IMG/VR virus record: IMGVR_UViG_3300008113_000487
Location: 1-26,132 of that record
Reading direction: 5' to 3' (one strand)
Source of the DNA: a virus
Length of the DNA: 26,132 nucleotides
Shown here piece after piece: positions 132 through 24,050 of the stretch; position 1 is the stretch's first letter; every line of letters begins with the position of its first letter. A program made the position numbers and the translations under genes. The notes below the pieces were generated by a model. That model was not told where the DNA came from, ran no database searches, and saw nothing but the letters and a program-made list of their open reading frames with translations.

Positions 132-452
132 ATGCGCATCAGGAAGTCCTTCTAGATCAAAGGCAAAACCTGGTCTGTCGAATACAAGTGGGGCTGTCGT
201 CTCGACGACGTCCTCGTCGACGGCTACTGCGAATTCTCCACTCGCACGATCTATCTCCGCCGCGAGCTCTCTCAGGCTGACAAGTGGACGACCTTTCTCC
301 ACGAGTATGTCCATGCAGTTCTCTTCGAAGCCCACATCACCGACATCCCTGGTGGTGTGGACGGCTTCTGCGAAGAAGTCATCTGCGAGGCGCTCGCCGA
401 TGCTCTCTCTACAAACTTCAAGTTCCGATGGTCTCGTTGCGGGTTCGTCTAA
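132..452 (+). CDS. Zincin-like metalloprotease-type phage protein, with in-frame TAG at codon 8
   Basis: This 106-residue protein is only open if TAG at 153-155 is read as an amino acid (as Gln: MRIRKSFQIKGKTW). An HExxH motif (HEYVH, around residues 66-70) sits in a helix-like stretch and is followed by an acidic segment, DGFCEEVICEALADAL. This order, HExxH then a downstream Glu-rich helix, is the pattern of small zinc-dependent proteases of the ImmA/IrrE or SprT-like kind. Whether it is an active protease cannot be decided here. The ATG at 132 follows GGGGG with short spacing; an in-frame ATG at 96, inside the inverted repeat, is an alternative start. The gene ends in TAA at 450-452, so its last 15 bases overlap the 5' end of the suppressor tRNA. 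Confidence 0.82.
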
Positions 453-511
453 CGGTAGGACGCCTGTCTCTAACTCAGGAAATCCAGGTTCGAGCCCTGG
501 CCTCGCATCCA
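438..511 (+). tRNA. Amber suppressor tRNA, anticodon CTA, probably charged with Gln
   Basis: A full cloverleaf can be drawn. The acceptor stem pairs 438-444 with 501-507 (six pairs including one G-U, with the seventh, T444/C501, mismatched). The D stem is 447-450/458-461 with loop AACGGTA. The anticodon stem is 463-467/475-479 with one mismatch at its loop end (T467/T475). The seven-base loop CTCTAAC gives anticodon CTA at 470-472. A four-base variable region precedes a perfect T stem 484-488/496-500 with loop TTCGAGC. Discriminator T508 is followed by an encoded CCA at 509-511. Anticodon CUA decodes UAG. The U1-A72 end pair and U35 fit bacterial tRNA-Gln identity, and the loop differs by one base from a CUG (Gln) anticodon loop; the discriminator U instead of G is atypical. 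It fits the in-frame TAG codons of ten genes in this window. Confidence 0.9.
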
Positions 512-1453: not shown

Positions 1454-1595
1454 CGATCCATTTCTTAAGGAACATTTCTACGATCAGAAAAGGTGTCTAA
1501 AATGCGGGAGTGTAGACTATGAGCAAGAACTTGACGAAGTCGGAGGGTACACGGTCTCGTGTTCGAAGTGTCCCGACACCAAAGATCACCATTGA
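1440..1595 (+). CDS. Small zinc-ribbon protein
   Basis: A 51-residue ORF (MEIDNDPFLKEHFYDQKRCL...) with two CxxC knuckles (CLKC near residues 19-22 and CSKC near 41-44) about 18 residues apart, a typical zinc-ribbon spacing. It overlaps the end of the upstream gene by 14 bases and the start of the large terminase by 77 bases, each in a different frame. The role is unknown; small zinc-binding proteins at this position may help packaging or DNA binding. It is acidic, ends in TGA and has no in-frame TAG. The long overlap with the terminase start is the main reservation, but the paired cysteines argue against chance. Confidence 0.62.
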   Translation: MEIDNDPFLKEHFYDQKRCLKCGSVDYEQELDEVGGYTVSCSKCPDTKDHH

Positions 1596-4125
1596 GGAAA
1601 AGCTCGAATAGATCAAACTCCTTGAAGCGAAACTAAAGCTTCAAGACGAGCTTCCGCATCTTCATGGTCAAAAGCTTTACTCTTGGCAGCGTAAGCACAT
1701 CGAGTCCCAGGAAAAGACGGCACTCATTTGTGCAGCTAACCAGATCGGTAAGGCTCTCGCAGATCACGAACTGGTGTGGACTTCTTAGGGGAAAAAACCC
1801 ATTTCCGAGATCAAACCTGGCGACATGGTTTGGGGAATGGATGGAAAGTTAAGAGAAGTCTTAGACGTCCCGTTTAAGGGAAAGGCTTATTGCTATCGTG
1901 TGACGTTTGATGATGGTCAATCGATCGTGGCGAGTGATGAGCATCTATGGATTGCGATGACTTCACAGAGTCGCTTCCGAAAGAAAACAAAGTCTGGCCA
2001 CAAGCGTAAGCATTACCGAGAGTGGTCGGTCCTCACCACTGAAGAGATCATGATTCAGGGGAAGTATTCTCCTGAGACAAAGCATCCGTACTATAGGGCG
2101 GCCACGCCTGTGGCTAGGCCGCTAGAGACTGAAGATACTGGATTGTTTGATCCATACTTGGTGGGGCTTCTTTTGGGTGATGGCAGCATGACAAGACGCC
2201 GCACCAGGATCGCATCGGCGGATAAAGAGATTCTCGATTACGTTCCTAGCAAGTACAAAATAAACAACGATGGCCGCTACTCTTACACCATCTCTGGTCT
2301 CAACGAGGACACGCTCCTCGCTGGGATCAGAAACAAAATCTCTTACGAGAAATTCATTCCAGAGAAATATCTAAACGGCGGAACCGCTGAGCGCCTAGCC
2401 CTTCTTCAAGGGCTAATGGACACAGATGGCTCTGTGTGTACTCGTGGCGCGGTGTTTGTGACGACTTCTCCCATGCTAAGAGACGGAGTGAGGCACTTGG
2501 TTGCGTCTTTAGGCGGTTACTCCACTGTAAGTGAGCGCATGGGCTCCTACAAAATCGATGGAGTGAAGAAAGAAACCCGCCAAGCTTACAAAGTAAATTT
2601 CTGGATGCTTGATAATCCGTTTCGACTCACGAGAAAGCGCGAAAAATACAAGACCGGTAAGCGGACATTTCAAAAAACCATCAAGCGAATTGAGCCGGTT
2701 GGTGTGGTCCCAGCGACTTGTATCCAGGTGGACCACGAAGATGGGTCTTTTCTGTGTGGCGAGTATGGAATCGTCACGCATAACTCCACTTGCAACATCA
2801 AAAAGTGGATTAAGTGGGCGACCGAACCAGAGATGTGGCCAGAGTTGTGGCCGAATCGTCGTCCGCGCCAGTTCTGGGCCCTTATGCCTACACGGGACAT
2901 CATCAGCACAGAGTATTTAACGAAGTGGAAAACAGAGTTTCTCCCTCGTGGAGAGATGAAGAATCATCCGAAGTACGGCTGGCGCGAAGAAATGCACAAT
3001 AAGCATTTGAAAGCGATCCACTTCAACACTGAGATCACGCTTTACACGCATACTTACGAACAAGACGTCCACCATCTCCAGGCTGGTACGGTTGACGCGC
3101 ACTTTGTTGACGAAGAACCGCCTTGGGAACTCATGCCTGAGCTTTTGATGCGACTTGCGGCAACGAATGGATATTTTAATGCGGTCATGACCCCGACAAG
3201 GGGTCAGGACCAGTGGCATAGGGTGTTTGAGGTTAAGGGTGACGGTGAGATTTTCACTGATGCTCTGAAACAGACCGTTTCTCTCTATGATTGTTTGAAA
3301 TATGAGGACGGCACTGACTCGATGTGGACGCATGAGCGAATCACAAAGATCATCAATAGCCTTGGAACAAAAGAAGAAGTGGATTTGAGGGTTTTTGGTC
3401 GGTTTGTTAAGCGAGTCGGCTTAAAGCTTTCAAGTTTTGACCGAGAAAAGAACTTAGTTGATCCAGAATCCACACCACACGATTGGTTGTGGTTCTCTGG
3501 TGTGGATATCGGTGGAGGAGGAAGCTCTCATCCTCCAGCTATTGCGTTTGTCGCGGTCAGTCCTGATATGAAGAAGGGCCGAGTGAAGGCCCTTTGGCGC
3601 GGCTCTAAGGAGCAGGATTATAATTCGACCGATGTGCTTCAAAGATACTTAGAAATGCGGGATGGTCGAACGATCATCGGGGAATATTACGATCACGCGG
3701 CAAAAGACTTCGTTACCACGGCACTTCGTCAAGGCGTGAGCTTTCAGCCTGCCGAAAAGAGTCATGACATTGGATTCCCGCTTCTAAACTCTCTTTTTAA
3801 GAACGAGATGCTACAAATCGAGAGAAACGGGGACTTTGAGGGCTTTTGCCAAGAGGCGAATACACTTCGGCACGAGTCACAAAAGCGCCACTCGGAAGAT
3901 GACCTCATCGATGCGGTGAGATACGCGGTTACGAAGATCCCTTGGAACTTTGAGGGAGTCGTCACCGATAGAATCATCCAGCCCGAGCCGCCGAGGATTA
4001 TTTCGAATGAAGAAATGCGAATGAACGGATATAAAAACCAAGAAACAACGGACCCAGAGACGCTTGAGGCACTGGTGGGGTTCTGGAATTCTCAATCAGA
4101 AATAGGGGACGAATATGGCTGGTGA
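1519..4125 (+). CDS. terL: Terminase large subunit, interrupted by an intein in the Walker A motif; two in-frame TAGs
   Basis: This is the ATP-driven DNA-packaging motor and nuclease. The 868-residue precursor starts at ATG 1519 with GGGAG eight bases upstream. TAG codons at 1609-1611 (codon 31) and 1786-1788 (codon 90) must be read as sense. Walker A is ANQIGK, then an intein of 344 residues (79-422), then ST, so excision restores ANQIGKST and a 524-residue mature protein of normal TerL size. Walker B is AHFVDEEP with D531-E533 in the precursor, followed by the coupling motif VMTPTRG. The C-terminal RNase H-like nuclease shows FSGVDIGGGG (D663) and HSEDDLIDAVRYAV (D794, D795, D798). The reading frame is continuous over both TAGs with plausible residues (EEKLEQIKLLEAKL; WTSQGKKPISEI). 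The gene overlaps the next one by 11 bases. Confidence 0.95.
1753..2784 (+). mobile_element. Intein with LAGLIDADG (DOD) homing endonuclease inside terL
   Basis: The insert begins with Ala after the Walker A Lys (GK|ALADHEL) and ends IVTHN before the extein Ser-Thr. Splicing blocks are visible: the A block with PISEIKPGDMV; a B block with SDEHLW (His at intein residue 64) in place of the usual TxxH; and a C-terminal CIQVDHEDGSFLCGEYG...HN. Two DOD endonuclease motifs are present: LVGLLLGDGS (Asp at intein residue 143) and LLQGLMDTDGSV (Asp at residue 225). Ala at position 1 instead of Cys or Ser means splicing would use a non-canonical first step. The TAG at 1786-1788 lies at intein residue 12, inside the N-terminal splicing block, so the element appears adapted to the recoded genome. 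Confidence 0.93.
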
Positions 4126-4366
4126 GTTATCGGCAAAAGACGTTTTAGAGATCATTCAGGCTTGCAAAGACGGCGGAGTAAGGAGTTTCAATTATGGAGA
4201 TCTCAAAATTGAGCTAGAATCAAAATCGGAAACGGTTTTAGATGAGGTTTCCACGCCAGCCGCTGACGCTGGTGAGGAGACTCCTCAGGACCCTGATCTT
4301 GAAAACGAATTACTCGCTATCGAAAACCCTGCCCAGTGGGAAGCAAAAGCAATGGAGAATAACTAA
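4115..4366 (+). CDS. Small acidic protein between terminase and portal genes
   Basis: An 83-residue protein whose first 40 residues look folded (MAGELSAKDVLEIIQACKDG then a short beta-like stretch) and whose C-terminal half is acidic and Pro/Glu-rich, probably disordered. It overlaps the end of terL by 11 bases and the portal start by one base (TAATG). Small proteins of this form are common between terL and portal in podovirus-like genomes, but I know no defined function. No in-frame TAG. Confidence 0.8.
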   Translation: MAGELSAKDVLEIIQACKDGGVRSFNYGDLKIELESKSETVLDEVSTPAADAGEETPQDPDLENELLAIENPAQWEAKAMENN

Positions 4367-6453
4367 TGAAAAAGCTAGATGCGGCGAAGCTTAACGAGAT
4401 GTACGAAAAGTCTGACTCGTGTGACAAGGATCTCTTTGCAGAGATGCGGTCGAATGTGCGTCTTATCAGTGGGAATCACTACTCACGAACAGCATCGAAG
4501 CTCTTTCACAGGATGAGAGACGTATAGACTTCTGAAGCGCAAAAGATCCGACTGGTTCGGAACCATACGCAGCTAATCACGAAGCGTTATCATTCAAACA
4601 TTCTCCGCATGGCTCCAGGGGTTAAAGTCATTCCCCATAACGAGACGGAGCTCCAGGATCAGAAAGCCGCAGAGCTTGCGAGCGCTGTTTGGATGCACGG
4701 GAAAGCAAAATACAATTTAAAAGAAAAGATCGCCGACCACGCAGAAGATTACGTGGATCTCGGAGAAACCTTTTGTCTTATCCAGTGGGATAAATCAAAG
4801 GGTGATCTTATTGGCTATAGCCAAGCGGTGGAAAAAGAAACTGGCTCTCCTATTTACGTCGACGAAGCTGGTGCGGATACGATTTACGCAGAGACTGTCG
4901 ATCCAATCACGGGCCAGGTGATTTCACACCAGCCAAAAGCCGACATGGATAGCCCTGTTTTCTCTGGTGACTTTGTTTTTAAGAACATTCTTCCGTTTAA
5001 CGTACTCCGCTGTCCGAAGGCCGAGACGATGAGCGAAAGTCCTTATCTCATCGTTCGAAGCATGATGAGTACGAACGATTTAAAAGAAATGTACGAGAGC
5101 GATCCAGAGAAGCTTGGCTTTATCGAGGAGAGTTCTCAGACGACGTTTAAAGTGTTCGATGGAGCTAAGGGCGAGTACGTCGACGGTAAAGACCAGACGA
5201 TGGTGAGAGAGTTTTTCTTCCGTCCATGTATGCAGTACCCGAAGGGATACTACTACATGACGACATCGACTGGGATATTGGAAGAGTCCGAGCTTCCTTT
5301 TGGTGTGTGGCCGATCGCCTGGTGTGGATTCCAAAAGATTCAGACCACACCACGTGCGTGTTCGATCATTCGGCACCTTCGGCCTTATCAGGCCGAGGTG
5401 AATCGCGCGGCAAGTTCTCAGGCGCAGCAGCAGCTTGAGTCGGGATTTGATAAGGTCTTTGTTCAAGGCGGGACGAAGGTCACAAAGGGAATTGATCTTC
5501 CTGGCACAAGGTTCTTCAACATCAGTGGAGCCACGCCACAAGTTGTTCCTGGCCGCAGTGGTGAGCAGTTTATGGCTTACCTCCAGATGACGATCGAAGA
5601 GATGTACCGTGTTGCAGACCTTGAACAAGACGACGCAGAGATCAATGGCCAGCTTGACCCGAATGTTCTCTTATTCCGCAGTATGCGTCAGCGAAAGAAA
5701 GTGGCGATCTATGCGGAGCGATTTGAATCGTTCGTAAAAGATATTTGCCGCATTTATTTAAAGCTTGCTCAGCATTACTTGGACGAAAGCGCTCTTATTC
5801 GAGCGGTCGGTCGTCGTGAAGCGATCAACATCGCAGAGTTTAAGAACATCACTGATCAAGACTTTGCGATCACACTTGAGTACGTTGGTAAAGACATCCC
5901 GCCAGAGGTGCGTGGGCAGATCATTGCGAATATGCCTTTTGCTAACAACGATGGGGCTTTTGGTGATCTCACGATTGATTATCGATCGGCTCAGTCCGAC
6001 ATTCTTGCCTTAGACCGCGGGGAATATCGTCCGGTTCGTATCTATGAAAATCACAAGTACATGATTAAGCAGTTAACGAACCGAATGAAGCAGCGGGACT
6101 TTGATCTATTAAGTCCTCAGATAAAGCAGATGTACGAGCAAAAGATCATGGAGCACTCAAAAGCTGAAGCTGAAGAGCTATCAAAGATGAAGGCTCTTCA
6201 GAGCGAGTTCATTCCCTCAGGCGGAGCTCTGGCGAAAGCAGACCTCTACATTGCCAAGGAAAACGGAAAGACAGAGCGTGCGACTTTCCCAACAGAGGCA
6301 CTCATGTGGCTCAAAGAGCGACTCGACGCTCAAGGTTCAACACAAGAACAGATGGAGGGAATCCCTCCAGATGCAATCGGACAGATACAAGAACAAATGG
6401 GAGGCATGATGCCTCCTGGAGAACAGGCACCGCAAATGCCAGAAGGATACTAA
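4366..6453 (+). CDS. Portal protein, in-frame TAG at codon 54
   Basis: The 695-residue protein is a fitting length for a podovirus portal, the ring through which DNA enters and leaves the capsid. The start ATG at 4366 overlaps the previous TAA. TAG at 4525-4527 interrupts a helix (RMRDVQTSEAQKIRLVRNHT as Gln); without readthrough the product would be a 53-residue peptide, and standard callers would start falsely at ATG 4609. The region after the TAG, with QLITKRYHSNILRMAPGVKV, then a long alpha/beta middle and a stem/crown-like helical part near residues 450-600, matches the portal pattern. The C-terminus is Met/Pro/Gln-rich (MGGMMPPGEQAPQMPEGY). Assignment rests on size, order between terL and scaffold, and general sequence character. 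Confidence 0.9.
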
Positions 6454-9785: not shown

Positions 9786-10193
9786 ATGAGTTTTTCAAAC
9801 ACAGCGGAAACAGCGGTACTCAACTAGATTTTTGTCGGTACGCCAACCTCATGGGATGGCAACACGGACCTATGGATCGCTCTTCACACGGCTGACCCAG
9901 GCGAGGCTGGAAGTGCGATAACGAGTGAGGCTACTTATGGTGGTTACGCTCGCGTTGTACTAACTCGTGCGACCGACTTCACGATTAGTGGCAACACGGT
10001 TAGCAATGCGAACCTTGAGCAGTTTGCGGCGTGTACTTCTGGAAGTAACACGATCACACACGCTTCGATTGTTTCTAGCTCAAGCGGAGCTGGTACGATT
10101 ATCGTCCGAGCGGCGTTATCTTCGTCGATCTCTGTTAGCACAGGCGTCCAACCTCAGTTTGCAGCCAACGCGCTGTCATTCACGTTGGATTAA
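9786..10193 (+). CDS. Small virion protein, in-frame TAG at codon 14
   Basis: A 135-residue protein if TAG at 9825-9827 is read (MSFSNTAETAVLNQIFVGTP as Gln). The pattern of a short helix with an LNxIF core, then a 'LWIALHTADPGEAGS' segment and a beta-rich body, is common in a widespread family of small phage structural proteins, in which the residue at the TAG position is polar. No ATG or good start occurs between the TAG and the ALHT segment, so a downstream restart would not rescue the conserved N-terminus. It lies eight bases after the upstream gene and ends in TAA. Confidence 0.87.
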
Positions 10194-12867: not shown

Positions 12868-15501
12868 ATGGCAAAATTCAAAGGTCAGTTAGAACAAGCA
12901 TAGATTGAGAACCGCACCAGCGATCCCACGAACCTGCCTGACGGCCTGGTGTGGTTGAATACGACTGACAATCGCTTTAAGGCTTTTGTTCAGGGCGCTA
13001 CTCGTTCTGTCGGTACAGAAGATCAAACACAGACTCTCACGAATAAAACCCTGACCGCACCGGTCGTGAACTCTCCGACTGGGATCGTGAAAGCAGATGT
13101 TGGTCTTGGTAACGTCGATAACACGAGTGACGCAACGAAGAACTCGGCTGTCGCAACGCTCACAAATAAGACGTTAACGTCGCCTGTTATCAACTCCCCA
13201 ACGGGATTGGTAAAAGCAGACGTAGGCCTTGGCAATGTCGACAATACGTCGGATGCGACAAAGAATGCTGCCGCGGTCACGCTTACAAATAAAGACTACG
13301 ACGGCGGTACGGCTTCAAACACGAGCCGTCTTACGGTCCCGAAGGAAACAAAAGCCAATCTTGATACTCTTACGAGAAAAGAAGCGACGGTTGTTTATTC
13401 GACAGATCGCCAGAAGCTATTTTTTGACAATGGAACGACGCTGAAGGAAATCGGAACCGGAAGTGGTGGTAGTGGAATTAACTACATCACAAATCCGGAT
13501 GCTGAGAACGACACATCTGGCTGGGTGGACACATCTCGCGTAATTCTTGGAAGCGTTGATGGAACGACGGATACCTTTACGGCAACGACGTCTATTACGT
13601 TTATTGAAAACGAGCCGTTAATCGTTGTTGGAAACGTAAGCGGAGCTACGACTGGTACGACGTATTACGCAAAAAGTGTTTCTGGAAACACCACTCAGCT
13701 CTCAGCCACGCCTGGCGGCGCGGCCTTGAACCTAAGCACAAGTAACCCGTCGACTTTGATGAGTCCAAGCGCGACGTTTCGTGGTGAGTATGTGGCTTCG
13801 ACTGGATCGTCGTGGACATCATCAACGGTTACACCGCTAAGAGGGCTTCGATCTTTTCTTTTAAGCAAGCCAGCATCTCGCACCACTGGAGAAGTTAAGC
13901 GATTTGATTTCACAATCGATGCGACAGACAAGGGCAAGGTCCTCCAGATCGGGTTTGATTACACAGTTTCCTCTGGCACATACGTCACCGGAGATCTGGT
14001 TTGTCTTATCAGGGACGTAACAAACAATCGCATGATCCAGCCTTCGGCTTGGCAGATTGAGTCGGTCGGAATCGGAACTTCGGCGCAAGCCCGAATGACG
14101 TTTCAGACTTCGAGTGATTCGGTTTCTTACGAATTTATCATCTTTCAAATCACCGCAACGGCGCTCGCTTACGACTTACGATTTGATAACTTTGTTATTG
14201 GTCCACAAGTCGTCCCGCTCGGAGCGCCTGTTACTGATTGGGTTAGCTATACGCCGACCGGTAGCTGGTCTACCAATACGACGTACACTGGTCGCTGGAG
14301 ACGTGTTGGCGATTCGATGCAGGTATCTATTAATTTGGCGTTGTCTGGCGCACCTACCGCAGCAGACCTAAGTGTAGACTTACCTTCTGGCTACGTTATC
14401 GACACAGCTAAGATTGGAGACGTTAACTTCGGAACTACTGGTTACGGCACACTGCTAGACGGTGGAACTAGACAATATGTAGTGTCTATGTCGTACCGAG
14501 ATACAGATTCGCTCTACGTTATCCATACCGAATCAGGTAACGCTGGCTTTGTTAACGCAACAAACCCAATCACTTTTGCAAACTCGGATGAAATTGTTTT
14601 GACAGCCACTGTACCAATCGTCGGCTGGTCGTCGAGCACAGTAGTTAGTTCGAGTGCGGATACTAGGGTAGTAGACCTTGTGGCTTTTAACAGCGGCACA
14701 CAATCGGTTACAGCAAATACTACCAACATAGCAGCAACTTCTAGCAAAGACAGTGTTGGTGGGTGGAACGGGACGCAATACACGATAAAGGTACCAGGGG
14801 ATTACAACTTCACGATAGCTGGTTCAGATAACGTCGCAAGTACCCCAGTAATAGACCTGTATGTAAATGCAGTTTCCTATAGAAGAATTGCGGCGCTACA
14901 CGGCGGAAACTACTATACAGGCTCTCTATTAGTACCAAACTTAAAAGCGGGAGATGTAGTTTCTTTCCGCTCCAGTATTACAACCACGCTTGGTGCTAAC
15001 TTTAGGCTTGAAGGATACATGCTCCAAGGCCCCAGCCAGATTGCTGCGAGCGAGGTTATAGCTTGCCGAGCGTACTTGTCGGCTAACCAAACGGGAGTTA
15101 ACCCGAACGCAAGCGGTGTAAAGGTAAATTTTAACGCTACTACATTGGATACACACGGCGGATGGAATACTGGCACATACAGGTACACCTGTCCTGCACC
15201 TGGAATTTACGAAGTAGACTCTACGATTTACACGTCCGGCACAAACGTGCTGGCAAACACATACCTAATTCAGATTTTCAAAAACGGAGCCGGTATTCAA
15301 AACGGAGCGCCGACAACAGCGATTGCTTCTACGAGTACGGGAGCTTTTGGAAAGTACATAGGTGAATGCGTAGCCGGTGATTACTTTGAGGTTTACTTCT
15401 ACGGAGCAGGAAACAATAGCGTTAGCACACTGACTTTGTTTGGACCAACTGGAACGGTTAATAGTAACGTCACCGTAAAACGCCTCGGCGGGGTGATGTA
15501 A
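12868..15501 (+). CDS. Tail fibre / receptor-binding protein, in-frame TAG at codon 12
   Basis: An 877-residue protein that recognises the host surface. The TAG at 12901-12903 is the 12th codon (FKGQLEQAQIENRTSDP as Gln). Then come two tandem 41-residue units (residues 56-96 and 97-137) with LTNKTL...P and VGLGNVDNTSD, a repeat known from phage tail fibres, and a partial third (TLTNKDYDG). A beta-sandwich, possibly carbohydrate-binding, region begins near residue 205 (NYITNPDAENDTSGW). The C-terminus holds two similar beta-rich domains (about 600-715 and 720-870), which resemble C1q/TNF-like trimeric heads in pattern (GGWN..QYTIKVPGDY; GGWNTGTYRYTCPAPGIYEV). It is the longest gene here and carries no other TAG. 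Confidence 0.9.
13033..13278 (+). repeat. Tandem 123-bp coding repeat in the tail fibre gene
   Basis: Two consecutive 41-codon units (13033-13155 and 13156-13278) encode nearly the same peptide, with TLTNKTL, NSPTG, VKADVGLGNV and DNTSDATKN shared. Many synonymous sites differ, so the duplication is not recent or is held apart at DNA level. A partial third unit starts at 13279. Confidence 0.88.
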
Positions 15502-16074: not shown

Positions 16075-16302
16075 ATGACTGCGCACGACTTTGGTTCATT
16101 TGCTACATGGGCTCTACAGGCGATTCTAGCTGGTGCAGTAGTTTATGCTGTCACGATCTTAAGTCGACTTCAGACGTCCGTTGAGCAGTTAAACAGCCAG
16201 ATCGCGGTCATAATTGAAAAAACATCGTGGCACGAGAGGGAGCTCGAGCGCCACGATGATCGTATTTCTCAAATCGAAAACTATAGGAGAGAAAATGTCT
16301 AA
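16075..16302 (+). CDS. Holin-like small membrane protein with coiled-coil tail
   Basis: A 75-residue protein from the ATG at 16075 (an upstream in-frame start at 16006 would overlap the coiled-coil gene without need). A membrane segment (WALQAILAGAVVYAVTILS, about residues 12-30) precedes a charged coiled coil (VEQLNSQIAVIIEKTSWHE...). This arrangement resembles small holin-associated proteins such as the haemolysin XhlA type. The coordinates place it in a lysis cassette. It overlaps the next gene by eight bases. Confidence 0.78.
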   Translation: MTAHDFGSFATWALQAILAGAVVYAVTILSRLQTSVEQLNSQIAVIIEKTSWHERELERHDDRISQIENYRRENV

Positions 16303-16579
16303 CGTAGGAACAAAAGAAATAAAAGAAGCGGTTATCGGACTTGCGGAACTGACAGCGGTCTTGGCTCCGATCTTAAAAGACGGTGTATAGATTGCTGACG
16401 TATCGGCGATCGTCGTTGCACTAAAAGACAAGCCTGAAGTCATTCAAGCGGTTCAAGCAGCGGTGCAGGGTCTAAAGGATATTCCCGCGGAAGCAAAAGA
16501 CCTCGATACAGCAGAAGTGCTGGATCTTGTCGTCACGCTTACGCCGGTAATTCTGAAGATTGTTGCTTCGCTGAAGTGA
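16295..16579 (+). CDS. Small helical protein in the lysis cassette, in-frame TAG at codon 30
   Basis: A 94-residue protein whose start has an ideal AGGAGA ribosome-binding site. TAG at 16382-16384 splits it (VLAPILKDGVQIADVSAIVV as Gln), so it escapes standard gene calling. The sequence is amphipathic and rich in Ala, Val, Ile and Leu with few aromatic residues, suggesting a helical bundle or peripheral membrane protein. I do not recognise a family. Its neighbours (holin-like before, spanin-like after) suggest a lysis or virion-associated role. Confidence 0.8.
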
Positions 16580-16844: not shown

Positions 16845-17019
16845 TGGTTGGATGATTGACGAAACTGATTCCACTCTTTTCAGAGTCGTGAAAAAGAACG
16901 GAAGAGAGTACGAAGAGTTTCTGGAGATTAAAGACAATAAAGAGATGAAGCGATTTCTCTGCTTCACAGACACAGACCGTAAAAAATGGGCTGAGGTTTT
17001 ATCGAGGGAGTGCAGATGA
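16720..17019 (+). CDS. Lipoprotein, possible outer-membrane spanin subunit
   Basis: A 99-residue protein from the ATG at 16720, preceded by AAGGAGG with six-base spacing (an in-frame TTG at 16717 is too near to that site). A basic N-terminus leads to a hydrophobic signal (LWVILILALLLMMGLTAC) with an LTAC lipobox, Cys about residue 32, then a mature domain of about 67 residues with alternating beta-like and charged segments. It is not Pro-rich as classical Rz1 is. It is embedded partly in the upstream gene and its TGA overlaps the endolysin ATG (ATGA). Confidence 0.82.
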   Translation: MRPQEPAIKDAKKKLWVILILALLLMMGLTACKQDQLKIEADGWMIDETDSTLFRVVKKNGREYEEFLEIKDNKEMKRFLCFTDTDRKKWAEVLSRECR

Positions 17020-17543
17020 GTTTTCTTTCTAAGTTACTGAAATAGATTAAGAGCCTGTTTAAAGCGGAAGACGTTAAGATCCCCGCACCAGTGCCTGCGC
17101 CTAAGCCTGTCGTGAGTCAGACTCCGTGGATGGATATTGCGATGAAGGAGCTTGGCCAGCGCGAAGTCTCTGGTTCAAAAGCAAATCCTCGGATTGTTGA
17201 GTACCTAACCTCTACGTCTCTTGATCGAGATTACCGAGAGACGGACGAGACTCCGTGGTGTGCGGCGTTTGTTACGTGGGTTCTTAAGCAGGCGAAAATG
17301 CGAAACACAAAGTCCGCATGGGCGAGGTCGTATCTTAAGAGCGGCAACGAGCTCGATAAGCCTCAATACGGGTGTATCGTGGTATTGGAACGTGGCCAGA
17401 CGAGTGGCCATGTGGGATTCTTTGTAGAGGAGTCTGAGAAGTACGTGAAGCTCCTAGGCGGAAACCAAGGCAATAAGGTTTCTCTAGCTGATTATCCAAA
17501 GACTCGAGTTCTTAGCTACCGATGGCCAGTTAAGGAGGCATAA
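17016..17543 (+). CDS. Endolysin-like peptidase (TIGR02594/NlpC-P60-like), in-frame TAG at codon 10
   Basis: A 175-residue protein that would cut the host cell wall. TAG at 17043-17045 lies in a short N-terminal helix (MSFLSKLLKQIKSLFKAED as Gln), followed by a Pro-rich linker (KIPAPVPAPKP). The catalytic domain has Cys in ETPWCAAFVTWVL, His in TSGHVGFFVEE and a late LGGNQGNKV motif, the signature of the TIGR02594 Cys/His peptidase group. A product starting after the TAG would keep the domain but lose the amphipathic helix, so the amber could control the full-length form. The start ATG overlaps the upstream TGA. Confidence 0.88.
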
Positions 17544-20174: not shown

Positions 20175-20494
20175 GAAACTTTAGGATTGAAGAAATCGAA
20201 GACCCACTTGTTCGAGAGAACTTCCAGCGCTTGATTGAGTTTTTCCAAGCTCAACCTGTTTTGCAGGGTCTTTTTAAGCATTTTCAGATCACGATCCCCC
20301 AGGCTGTGACGAACTATCGATACCGCCACGGGCTTGGCTTTCAGCCCAAGGATGTAATTCAAAGCTCCCTCACTGGCGTGGGAGCTTTGACTTGGAACTA
20401 TGCTAGTTTTGATAAAGAATATGTGAGTATCACGACGACTGGCCCTTGCGTCGTTAGAGCCTTTATCGGCAGATATGAGGAGGTCAATCAGTGA
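20171..20494 (+). CDS. Small tail-region protein
   Basis: A 107-residue protein with a charged helical N-terminal third (FRIEEIEDPLVRENFQRLIEF) and a beta-like remainder (HGLGFQPKDVIQSS; SITTTGPCVVRAFIG). It couples to the nozzle gene (ATGA) and to the adaptor-like gene (GTGA). Its role is unknown; accessory proteins in this position can join tail parts. A perfect 11-bp inverted repeat lies inside the gene at 20359-20390. Confidence 0.8.
   Translation: MRNFRIEEIEDPLVRENFQRLIEFFQAQPVLQGLFKHFQITIPQAVTNYRYRHGLGFQPKDVIQSSLTGVGALTWNYASFDKEYVSITTTGPCVVRAFIGRYEEVNQ
20359..20390. repeat. 11-bp perfect inverted repeat inside a tail gene
   Basis: TCAAAGCTCCC (20359-20369) and GGGAGCTTTGA (20380-20390) are exact reverse complements around ten bases. 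In RNA this would form a stable hairpin inside the coding region. No U-run follows. Confidence 0.85.
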
Positions 20495-21183
20495 CGCTTT
20501 GGACATTGCTACAACTAAAAGAAAAGATTCAGGCTGATCTAGATCTCTAGGAGGAAATCTTCATAGAGGCGTCGGAGCTTACTGGTTACATCAATGAAGC
20601 CATTGATGAGGCCGAGCAACACATCCTGACGATCTATGATGATTATCTTTTGGCAGCAGAGACTTTGTCGGTGACGAGTGGTGTGGCTGAGTACGACCTC
20701 CCCGCCGATATTTACGCTCATAAGATCAGAAAAATCTTTATCGACAATGGTTCGGACAAGTACGAAATCCGTCGAATTCGTATGCTTCAAAACACGGTAG
20801 ACGTCGACTCCTCAGAAGAGCTTCGTTACGTGATCATGAACACTTTGTCTGGCGGGGCTAAGATCAAATTCTTTCCCGCACCAGACTTCACTGATTCAAC
20901 ATCGATCACGATCTGGTTCATTAGAAACGCGAGAAATCTAGCGCAAGATAGCGATCTCATGGACCTTCCCGAGGCGGCTCAATTTGTGATCCAAGCGGCG
21001 AAAGTTCGTTGCTACGAAAAAGAGGGTCATCCTCAGACAGAGGCTGCGAAGGCCGAGCGCAATCGTCTACAGGCTCAGCTTGTTGAAACTCTTCAGTCGA
21101 TGGTGCCAGACGAAAACAACATGGCGATTCCTGATATGTCTTTTTATGACGAATTCGACACGTCATACACTAAGGGGTGGTGA
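20491..21183 (+). CDS. Probable head-tail adaptor protein, in-frame TAG at codon 20
   Basis: A 230-residue protein starting GTG at 20491, overlapping the previous TGA (GTGA). TAG at 20548-20550 falls in the first helix (KEKIQADLDLQEEIFIEA as Gln); standard callers would begin falsely at 20650. After the TAG come LTGYINEAIDEAEQHILTIY and a beta-hairpin segment AYDLPADIYAHKIR-like region, the arrangement seen in podovirus adaptor or tail tubular A-type proteins that join portal to nozzle. The C-terminal helix is rich in Glu, Ala and Arg. The functional call depends on position beside the nozzle gene and on length. Confidence 0.82.
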
Positions 21184-22883: not shown

Positions 22884-24050
22884 ATGTCTAACTTCAAAAT
22901 GACTCCCATGCCTATGAATCAAAGTATTTGGGACATGATGAGCCCATAGATTGCGAAGCAGTCTCCTTTGATGTCCACACCAGGTGATGAGATTTATATG
23001 CCTCCGACTGAGCCTCAGGCTCCTATGCCTATGCAAGGCGGAATGGCTCCAACGAAGATGAAGATCTCGGAATCGTCATCTGGTGGTGGTTGGGGAAATG
23101 TTGACCAAGATCAGAAGTCTATTTTCGAAGATCTGATCCAGCGCAGACGTGAAGGTGCAGATCAGATTCAAGGAAAGCTCGCAAGCCTTGGACCTCGTCC
23201 AGGTGGTGCAGCGAATATGGACTTGTCGCTGCTTGCTGGTGCGGTTGATTCGTTCACCGATGGTGAGACGAATTTCTCGCAGACCTACAGGGCTCCAACG
23301 AGAGCAAAAGAGTTTGATCAAAACAAAGCAAACTTAGAAAAGGCTCTTAGTGAGCAGCAAAACTCGCTTAGCGATGATCAGTTAAAATACTTGTCTGCGA
23401 TGGCTCAGAGTGAGGACCGAAAGCTCCAGCGTCAGCTTCTGATGGAGACTGCGAAGCAGCGCAATGAGATTAAAGCTGGCAATCAAGATACTAATTTAGA
23501 AAATAAGCTCAGGAAAGAATGGCTAAGTGGGGCAACAACAAAAAACTCGCTCATCATGAAAGACGGAGCGAGTACGCTAGAAAAGCTCGGCATAAACCCA
23601 AGTCCGGCTGGCGATATGGCGATGCTATACAGTTTTTTCCGGATTCTCGATCCCACTTCGACCGTCCGCGAAACAGAATATGCAGCGGCAGCTTCGGCGG
23701 CTGGTCTCGGAGACAAGGTTAGTGGCTATATAGAGCGTATCCAGAGGGGCGAAAAGCTCACTCCTATGCAGCGACAAGATTTCGTTCGCGTCGGCAAAGA
23801 GCTTTATCGAAAAAAGCTCGACTCGCAACGAGGTTTCGACGAGGGCTACATCAGCCTAGCAAAAACAAGCGGTGTGGACCCAGACAGGGTCGTTATGTCT
23901 AAAAACTTTTTCGGTGAGGCAGCTCAGCCTGGATCGATTGGTTCGGCCCCCGCGCCAGCGGCGGGGCCGCCTAAGGTGGGTGATGTTGTGAATGGCTATG
24001 AATACATCGGCGGATCTCCTGGTGCGCAGCAATCTTGGAGGAAGAAGTAA
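22884..24050 (+). CDS. Ejection-region virion protein, in-frame TAG at codon 22
   Basis: A 388-residue protein with AGGAGG upstream of ATG 22884. TAG at 22947-22949 splits a Met/Pro-rich N-terminus (SIWDMMSPQIAKQSPLM as Gln). After it come Pro/Met repeats (PTEPQAPMPMQGGM), a long charged helical middle (about residues 60-220) and a beta-like C-terminus with PPKVGDVVNGYEYIGG. This is a plausible internal or tail-lumen protein acting in DNA delivery, with functional assignment from position only. Its stop overlaps the next ATG by one base. Confidence 0.82.

Follow-up and report, generated by a model that had tools for sequence, protein, structure and literature searches.

A phage tRNA with a CUA anticodon and single start-proximal TAG codons in ten same-strand genes: a candidate amber gate on a putative late operon

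The window analyzed here is a stretch of 26,132 nucleotides, positions 1 to 26,132 of the IMG/VR virus record IMGVR_UViG_3300008113_000487. It carries 11 in-frame TAG codons in ten same-strand genes of a putative late operon, one per gene plus one more in the intein of the large terminase (TerL), whereas the major capsid gene and about two thirds of the late genes have none. The interrupted genes, the tRNA and an adjacent stem-loop are as follows.

132 to 452, + strand: M78/IrrE-like putative metallopeptidase gene (weak Pfam and PHROG matches); TAG at 153-155 (codon 8), next codon ATC; homologues cross the TAG.
438 to 511, + strand: putative amber-suppressor tRNA of the tRNA-Gln type (ARAGORN, Rfam, identity to a phage tRNA-Gln(CTG), pair check).
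515 to 543, + strand: stem-loop of 12 bp (fold -22.4 kcal/mol; z -1.4, weak).
749 to 1453, + strand: gene at the small-terminase position (TerS); TAG at 845-847 (codon 33), next codon ATT; 13 homologues cross the site.
1519 to 4125, + strand: TerL with intein (PHROG terminase and LAGLIDADG matches); TAG at 1609-1611 (codon 31), next codon ATC.
1786 to 1788, + strand: TAG of the TerL intein (codon 90, ~12 residues into the intein), next codon GGG.
4366 to 6453, + strand: portal gene (Pfam P22_portal); TAG at 4525-4527 (codon 54), next codon ACT; 33 homologues cross the site.
9786 to 10193, + strand: Gp80-like structural gene (Pfam Gp80, 5.6e-21); TAG at 9825-9827 (codon 14), next codon ATT; two homologues cross the site.
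12868 to 15501, + strand: tail-fibre-like gene; TAG at 12901-12903 (codon 12), next codon ATT, in place of a Gln conserved in 9/9 homologues.
16295 to 16579, + strand: small gene with no assigned function; TAG at 16388-16390 (codon 32), next codon ATT; ribosome-binding site at the upstream start, one weak homologue across.
17016 to 17543, + strand: CHAP-domain lytic enzyme gene (Pfam CHAP); TAG at 17043-17045 (codon 10), next codon ATT; ribosome-binding site.
20491 to 21183, + strand: SU10-type adaptor gene (Pfam SU10_adaptor, 1.4e-16); TAG at 20548-20550 (codon 20), next codon GAG; four homologues cross the site.
22884 to 24050, + strand: phrog_13634 gene, function not known; TAG at 22947-22949 (codon 22), next codon ATT; PHROG match downstream of the site.

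The tRNA is the only one that ARAGORN calls in the window, and it matches Rfam RF00005 over 438-508 at 46.6 bits (gathering threshold 29, E = 3.4e-7), which meets the requirement for membership. A first-pass annotation, made by a model without database searches, had placed a tRNA at 438-511 with its CTA anticodon at 470-472, had read from it U33, A37, a U1-A72 pair, an encoded CCA, a U at the discriminator position (U73) and a single mismatched pair in each of the acceptor and anticodon stems, and had proposed a tRNA finder as a check; the call and all of these details held. A pair check identifies the acceptor-stem mismatch as T7.C and the anticodon-stem one as a T.T at the base of that stem. 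Folding energy does not separate the gene from shuffled sequences (z = -0.26), but the covariance model does, and an identical copy is present in a second contig. At its 3' end the M78 gene, with its TAA stop at 450-452, runs 15 bases into the tRNA. The stem-loop at 515-543 begins almost directly 3' of the CCA, has no T run and matches no ribozyme family in Rfam; we infer only that it could be an element that processes or protects the tRNA end.

In a search of 50,697 phage records, this tRNA was matched best over its full length by tRNA-Gln genes from Caulobacter phages. One of these, the annotated tRNA-Gln(CTG) gene of CcrRogue, is identical at 61 of 74 positions (82%) from end to end, and acceptor pair 3 and T-stem pair 48-62 are altered on both sides between the two genes yet remain paired. 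The CcrRogue gene differs in its CTG anticodon, its ordinary decoding of Gln and its location in a tRNA cluster. It shares both U73 and the T7.C mismatch with the window tRNA, so these two oddities are not marks of a defective tRNA, and the earlier concern that they might impair function is weakened; only the T.T at the anticodon-stem base remains peculiar to the window. The Gln-like character claimed in the first-pass annotation is thus supported by this kinship, as is its proposal that a suppressor provides the mechanism for recoding, given that the tRNA sits among TAG-interrupted genes, although suppression itself is inferred. The CUA anticodon, one criterion for an amber-suppressor tRNA, is present; charging and the reading of UAG in the cell are inferences from sequence alone. 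The best-supported reading is an amber suppressor derived from tRNA-Gln(CUG). We rejected a pyrrolysine tRNA: "tRNA-Pyl" is the name ARAGORN gives to any CTA anticodon, the cloverleaf is normal, the body is Gln-like, and no pyl gene was recognized among the window proteins scanned, so that membership in tRNA-Pyl is not met.

The case that the TAGs lie inside genes rests on homology. A naive count of ORFs opened through TAG was rejected as evidence, since tRNA-free relatives yield similar numbers. Among about forty loci found by portal or capsid relationship, unbroken homologue alignments cross 9 of the 11 TAG sites, with conserved sequence before the TAG, and 131 homologous alignments in the relatives (48,499 residues) contain no TAG and one TGA. 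These nine crossings satisfy the code-15 criterion that TAG be read as sense within homologous coding regions. Ribosome-binding sites precede most of the upstream starts. The two sites with weak or absent homology support, in the CHAP gene and in 22884-24050, rest mainly on this signal: no homologue reaches the CHAP site, and the site in 22884-24050 has a single weak alignment together with a strong ribosome-binding site at the upstream start. Assignment of 749-1453 as TerS is inferred from gene order, without a family match. We note that the Walker A motif of TerL is split (ANQIGK / ST) by the LAGLIDADG intein, which begins with Ala and has its own start-proximal TAG.

The TAGs also recur in independent contigs, nine of the 11 in a second, overlapping contig and three in a third, and the frames of the interrupted genes are otherwise intact, never broken by TAA or TGA. 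At 5875-5880 of the portal gene, both near-identical contigs carry 63 extra bases (21 residues) in frame; their absence from the window copy could reflect either a natural deletion or an assembly error.

The placement of the TAGs is strongly nonuniform (Kolmogorov-Smirnov p 1e-6), with the first TAG falling within 54 codons in all ten genes (p about 4e-8); both statistics were computed with the longest possible starts. TAG is used 11 times in 8274 codons of the window, against 356 CAA or CAG codons. As a control we applied the same script to phAss-1, a published code-15 phage, which has 262 TAGs in 33,095 codons (7.9 per 1000) at a mean relative position of 0.47, whereas the window has 1.2 per 1000 at a mean relative position of 0.065, a density about sevenfold lower. 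The code-15 criterion that TAG serve as an ordinary Gln codon throughout genes is therefore not met, the TAGs of the window being N-terminal only. We dropped stop-codon usage as evidence for reassignment: none of 28 window genes ends in TAG compared with 13.8% in relatives (p 0.016), but the closest TAG-free relative also has 0/11 and one or two ORFs of the upstream contig do end in TAG, making the signal too weak.

The sequence that follows the TAGs is equally biased. Nine of the 11 are followed by A and the other two by G, a purine throughout, whereas in phAss-1 the next base is A in 34%, G in 32%, C in 21% and T in 13%. The next codon is ATT or ATC (Ile) at 8 of 11 sites, compared with 8% Ile after CAG. 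In the relatives, the column after the TAG is Leu in 9/9 fibre, 11/16 TerL, 2/2 Gp80 and 1/1 small-gene homologues, and at these four sites the window has Ile in every case, whereas only 7.8% of Leu columns elsewhere show this change (p 5.5e-5). Two of the four sites rest on one or two relatives, and restriction to columns with at least four relatives gives p 0.009. Where the relatives already have a purine after the TAG column (intein, adaptor, mostly portal, and M78), the window has one too. For SupE, a Gln-inserting suppressor, a change of the next base from C to A raises efficiency tenfold, and purines help generally (PMC6266110). Such a context bias would be expected if selection had favored efficient suppression by a Gln suppressor. 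A change from Leu to Met would also supply the A but, by our inference, would create a start codon right after the stop; AUG follows none of the 11 TAGs. Neither the restriction to N-termini nor the suppression-favoring contexts had been noted in the first-pass annotation.

The residue inserted at UAG is most likely Gln, a conclusion inferred, not shown, from the kinship of the tRNA and from the TAG columns in relatives. The fibre column is Gln in all nine homologues; the remaining columns are mostly Lys, Arg, Glu, Ser, Thr, Ala or His. Summed BLOSUM62 scores over all TAG columns favor Gln, and with the fibre excluded Lys, Ser and Glu move slightly ahead of it.

The closest TAG-free relative (L011; 71% capsid identity) lacks the tRNA and has no TAG in homologous segments, so that the tRNA and the TAGs occur together on one lineage. 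There the M78 gene runs straight into TerS through an ATGA overlap, with no insert, whereas in the window the same interval spans about 297 bases and holds the tRNA, the hairpin and a small ORF. The pattern is seen in a single phage lineage (the window and two near-identical contigs), and its conservation therefore cannot be judged.

Two overlapping contigs show the phage to extend over at least 33 kb, and from its relatives, which are about 42-43 kb, we judge its full size to be roughly 40 kb. A contig that reaches 7 kb upstream of the window encodes a tyrosine recombinase (13851-14381 of that contig), on which basis the phage may be temperate and could have a use for tight silence. The same contig holds a RusA/PDDEXK-type gene with TAG as its stop codon and a Gp80-like gene that has a Tat-like signal. 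One further ORF there has a TAG followed by T and may be recoded or may be two ORFs, no homologue deciding between these.

We hypothesize that an amber-suppressor tRNA co-transcribed with the late genes gates their translation, which we consider the likely and best explanation of the locus. The tRNA, the TAG positions, the readthrough-compatible homology, the context bias and the empty site in the relative are supported by sequence, while suppression, the residue, timing and polarity are inferred and no expression data stand behind the reading. The tRNA would head a late operon for packaging, structure and lysis, its targets serving mostly to build the virus particle. A single transcript may yield both tRNA and targets, because the tRNA overlaps the 3' end of M78 and the targets come after it on that strand. 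Our search recognized no late promoter, and the operon and its late timing are inferences drawn from the order of the genes. Until the tRNA builds up, ribosomes initiating on mRNAs of the TAG genes would halt within a few codons, and a start-proximal amber would end translation before a sizeable fragment is made. Once the operon is transcribed, the same transcript would give rise to the tRNA, which would be charged by the host, most likely with Gln, and would permit full-length proteins, so that the arrangement would act as a coherent feed-forward gate that keeps late genes from premature or leaky expression. In general, nonsense codons are most polar when they lie early in a gene. Transcriptional polarity from those in the window could bring TAG-free genes, the capsid gene among them, under the gate, and production of the tRNA might reinforce itself, since the M78 amber precedes the tRNA gene.

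The most serious rival shares the biochemistry of the gate, the sole disagreement being whether control is what the TAG placement was selected for: a young or sparse ordinary TAG-to-Gln recoding, in which the tRNA was acquired otherwise, TAGs drifted in, and internal ones were purged as costly truncations without any regulation. In its favor, phages that recode TAG to Gln with a suppressor tRNA are well known, TAGs are few here, an N-terminal bias would follow from purging as well, and the fibre TAG replaces a conserved Gln. Against this, most TAGs replace non-Gln residues of the relatives and would have needed several base changes, the Leu-to-Ile changes beside them resemble tuning of suppression, and, the intein apart, each of ten genes has exactly one. 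We regard drift as unlikely but cannot exclude it.

Other explanations fare worse. The TAGs might be real stops, with true starts downstream or with leader peptides and restart at the AUU or AUC that directly follows 8 of the 11, both rare start codons, and chance N-terminal extension through TAG is indeed common in the relatives. This is very improbable: the N-terminal segment before the TAG is kept unbroken in homologues and has ribosome-binding sites at its upstream starts, conserved terminase sequence flanks the intein TAG on both sides, and no next codon is AUG. There is similarly little to recommend a host that itself reads UAG as an amino acid, with the phage following the host code. 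Some phages do infect recoded hosts, among them a patescibacterial phage that carries a UGA suppressor tRNA, but such a code predicts TAGs that are spread and context-free as in phAss-1, the RusA/PDDEXK-type gene of the upstream contig ends in TAG, and portal relatives in bacterial assemblies, one of them Bdellovibrionales, have no TAG in homologous segments. Decay mutations or sequence and assembly errors find some support in the 63-base portal difference between contigs but are practically ruled out by the recurrence of TAGs in independent contigs, the otherwise intact frames and the presence of a matching tRNA.

The gated reading has partial counterparts in known systems. Code-15 phages with a tRNA-Sup(CTA) (phAss-1, crAss-like and Lak phages) likewise carry a CTA tRNA, probably read TAG as Gln and have in-frame TAGs mainly in structural and lysis genes, for which late-gene control has been proposed; Borges et al. 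2022 is reported to be the main source for this proposal. These phages, however, have large genomes (135,976 b in phAss-1) with many evenly spread TAGs per gene, whereas the phage of the window, known over at least 33 kb, has one per gene, all N-terminal and in a context that looks selected. E. coli supE (glnV) is also a tRNA-Gln with a CUA anticodon whose efficiency is raised by an A after UAG (PMC6266110), but it is a host mutation rather than a phage gene that has dedicated target genes of its own. A parallel in logic is a synthetic feed-forward loop, the "leak dampener" of Ho et al. 2020, in which a single signal drives both an amber-bearing gene and a suppressor tRNA, and in which 1-3 ambers cut leak 3- to 7-fold while 40-69% of the signal is kept in a release-factor-1 strain (PMC7969014). 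That circuit is an engineered one in E. coli that uses the supP tRNA together with a ribozyme, while the window is natural and involves many genes with one start-proximal amber each.

A bolder form of the amber gate, which we favor by a narrow margin, is that a temperate phage uses a dedicated suppressor tRNA and single start-proximal, context-tuned UAGs in ten late genes as a translation-level feed-forward lock on lysis and morphogenesis, possibly self-reinforcing through polarity. If true, this would be a natural safety lock against premature switch-on of late genes. Phages with hundreds of TAGs make it hard to decide between regulation and drift as the basis of recoding, while the ten TAGs of a phage of roughly 40 kb could be reverted singly. 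N-terminal placement and Leu-to-Ile tuning are the traces expected of selection for control, and they match an independently engineered circuit. We found no report of single N-terminal, context-tuned TAGs in the literature searched, which left out Borges et al. 2022, and novelty is provisional.

Searches for the pattern elsewhere returned little. The tail-fibre motif with its TAG, sought in other viral contigs, was found only in this phage and in three chance matches, and none of the further relatives retrieved with a small-terminase profile carried the tRNA. A partial scan for other CTA tRNAs covered 80 loci, only eight of which have such a tRNA by ARAGORN, with no clear copy of the pattern in the four inspected. 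One viral contig with a CTA tRNA (L058) has a few genes opened by early TAGs and may be either a further sparse case or chance. Matches to the tRNA in assemblies that hold portal relatives were weak or absent, and the host was not identified. The structural module also has a syntenic relative on a 213-kb contig from a Bdellovibrionales assembly (L171), which hints at a prophage in predatory bacteria.
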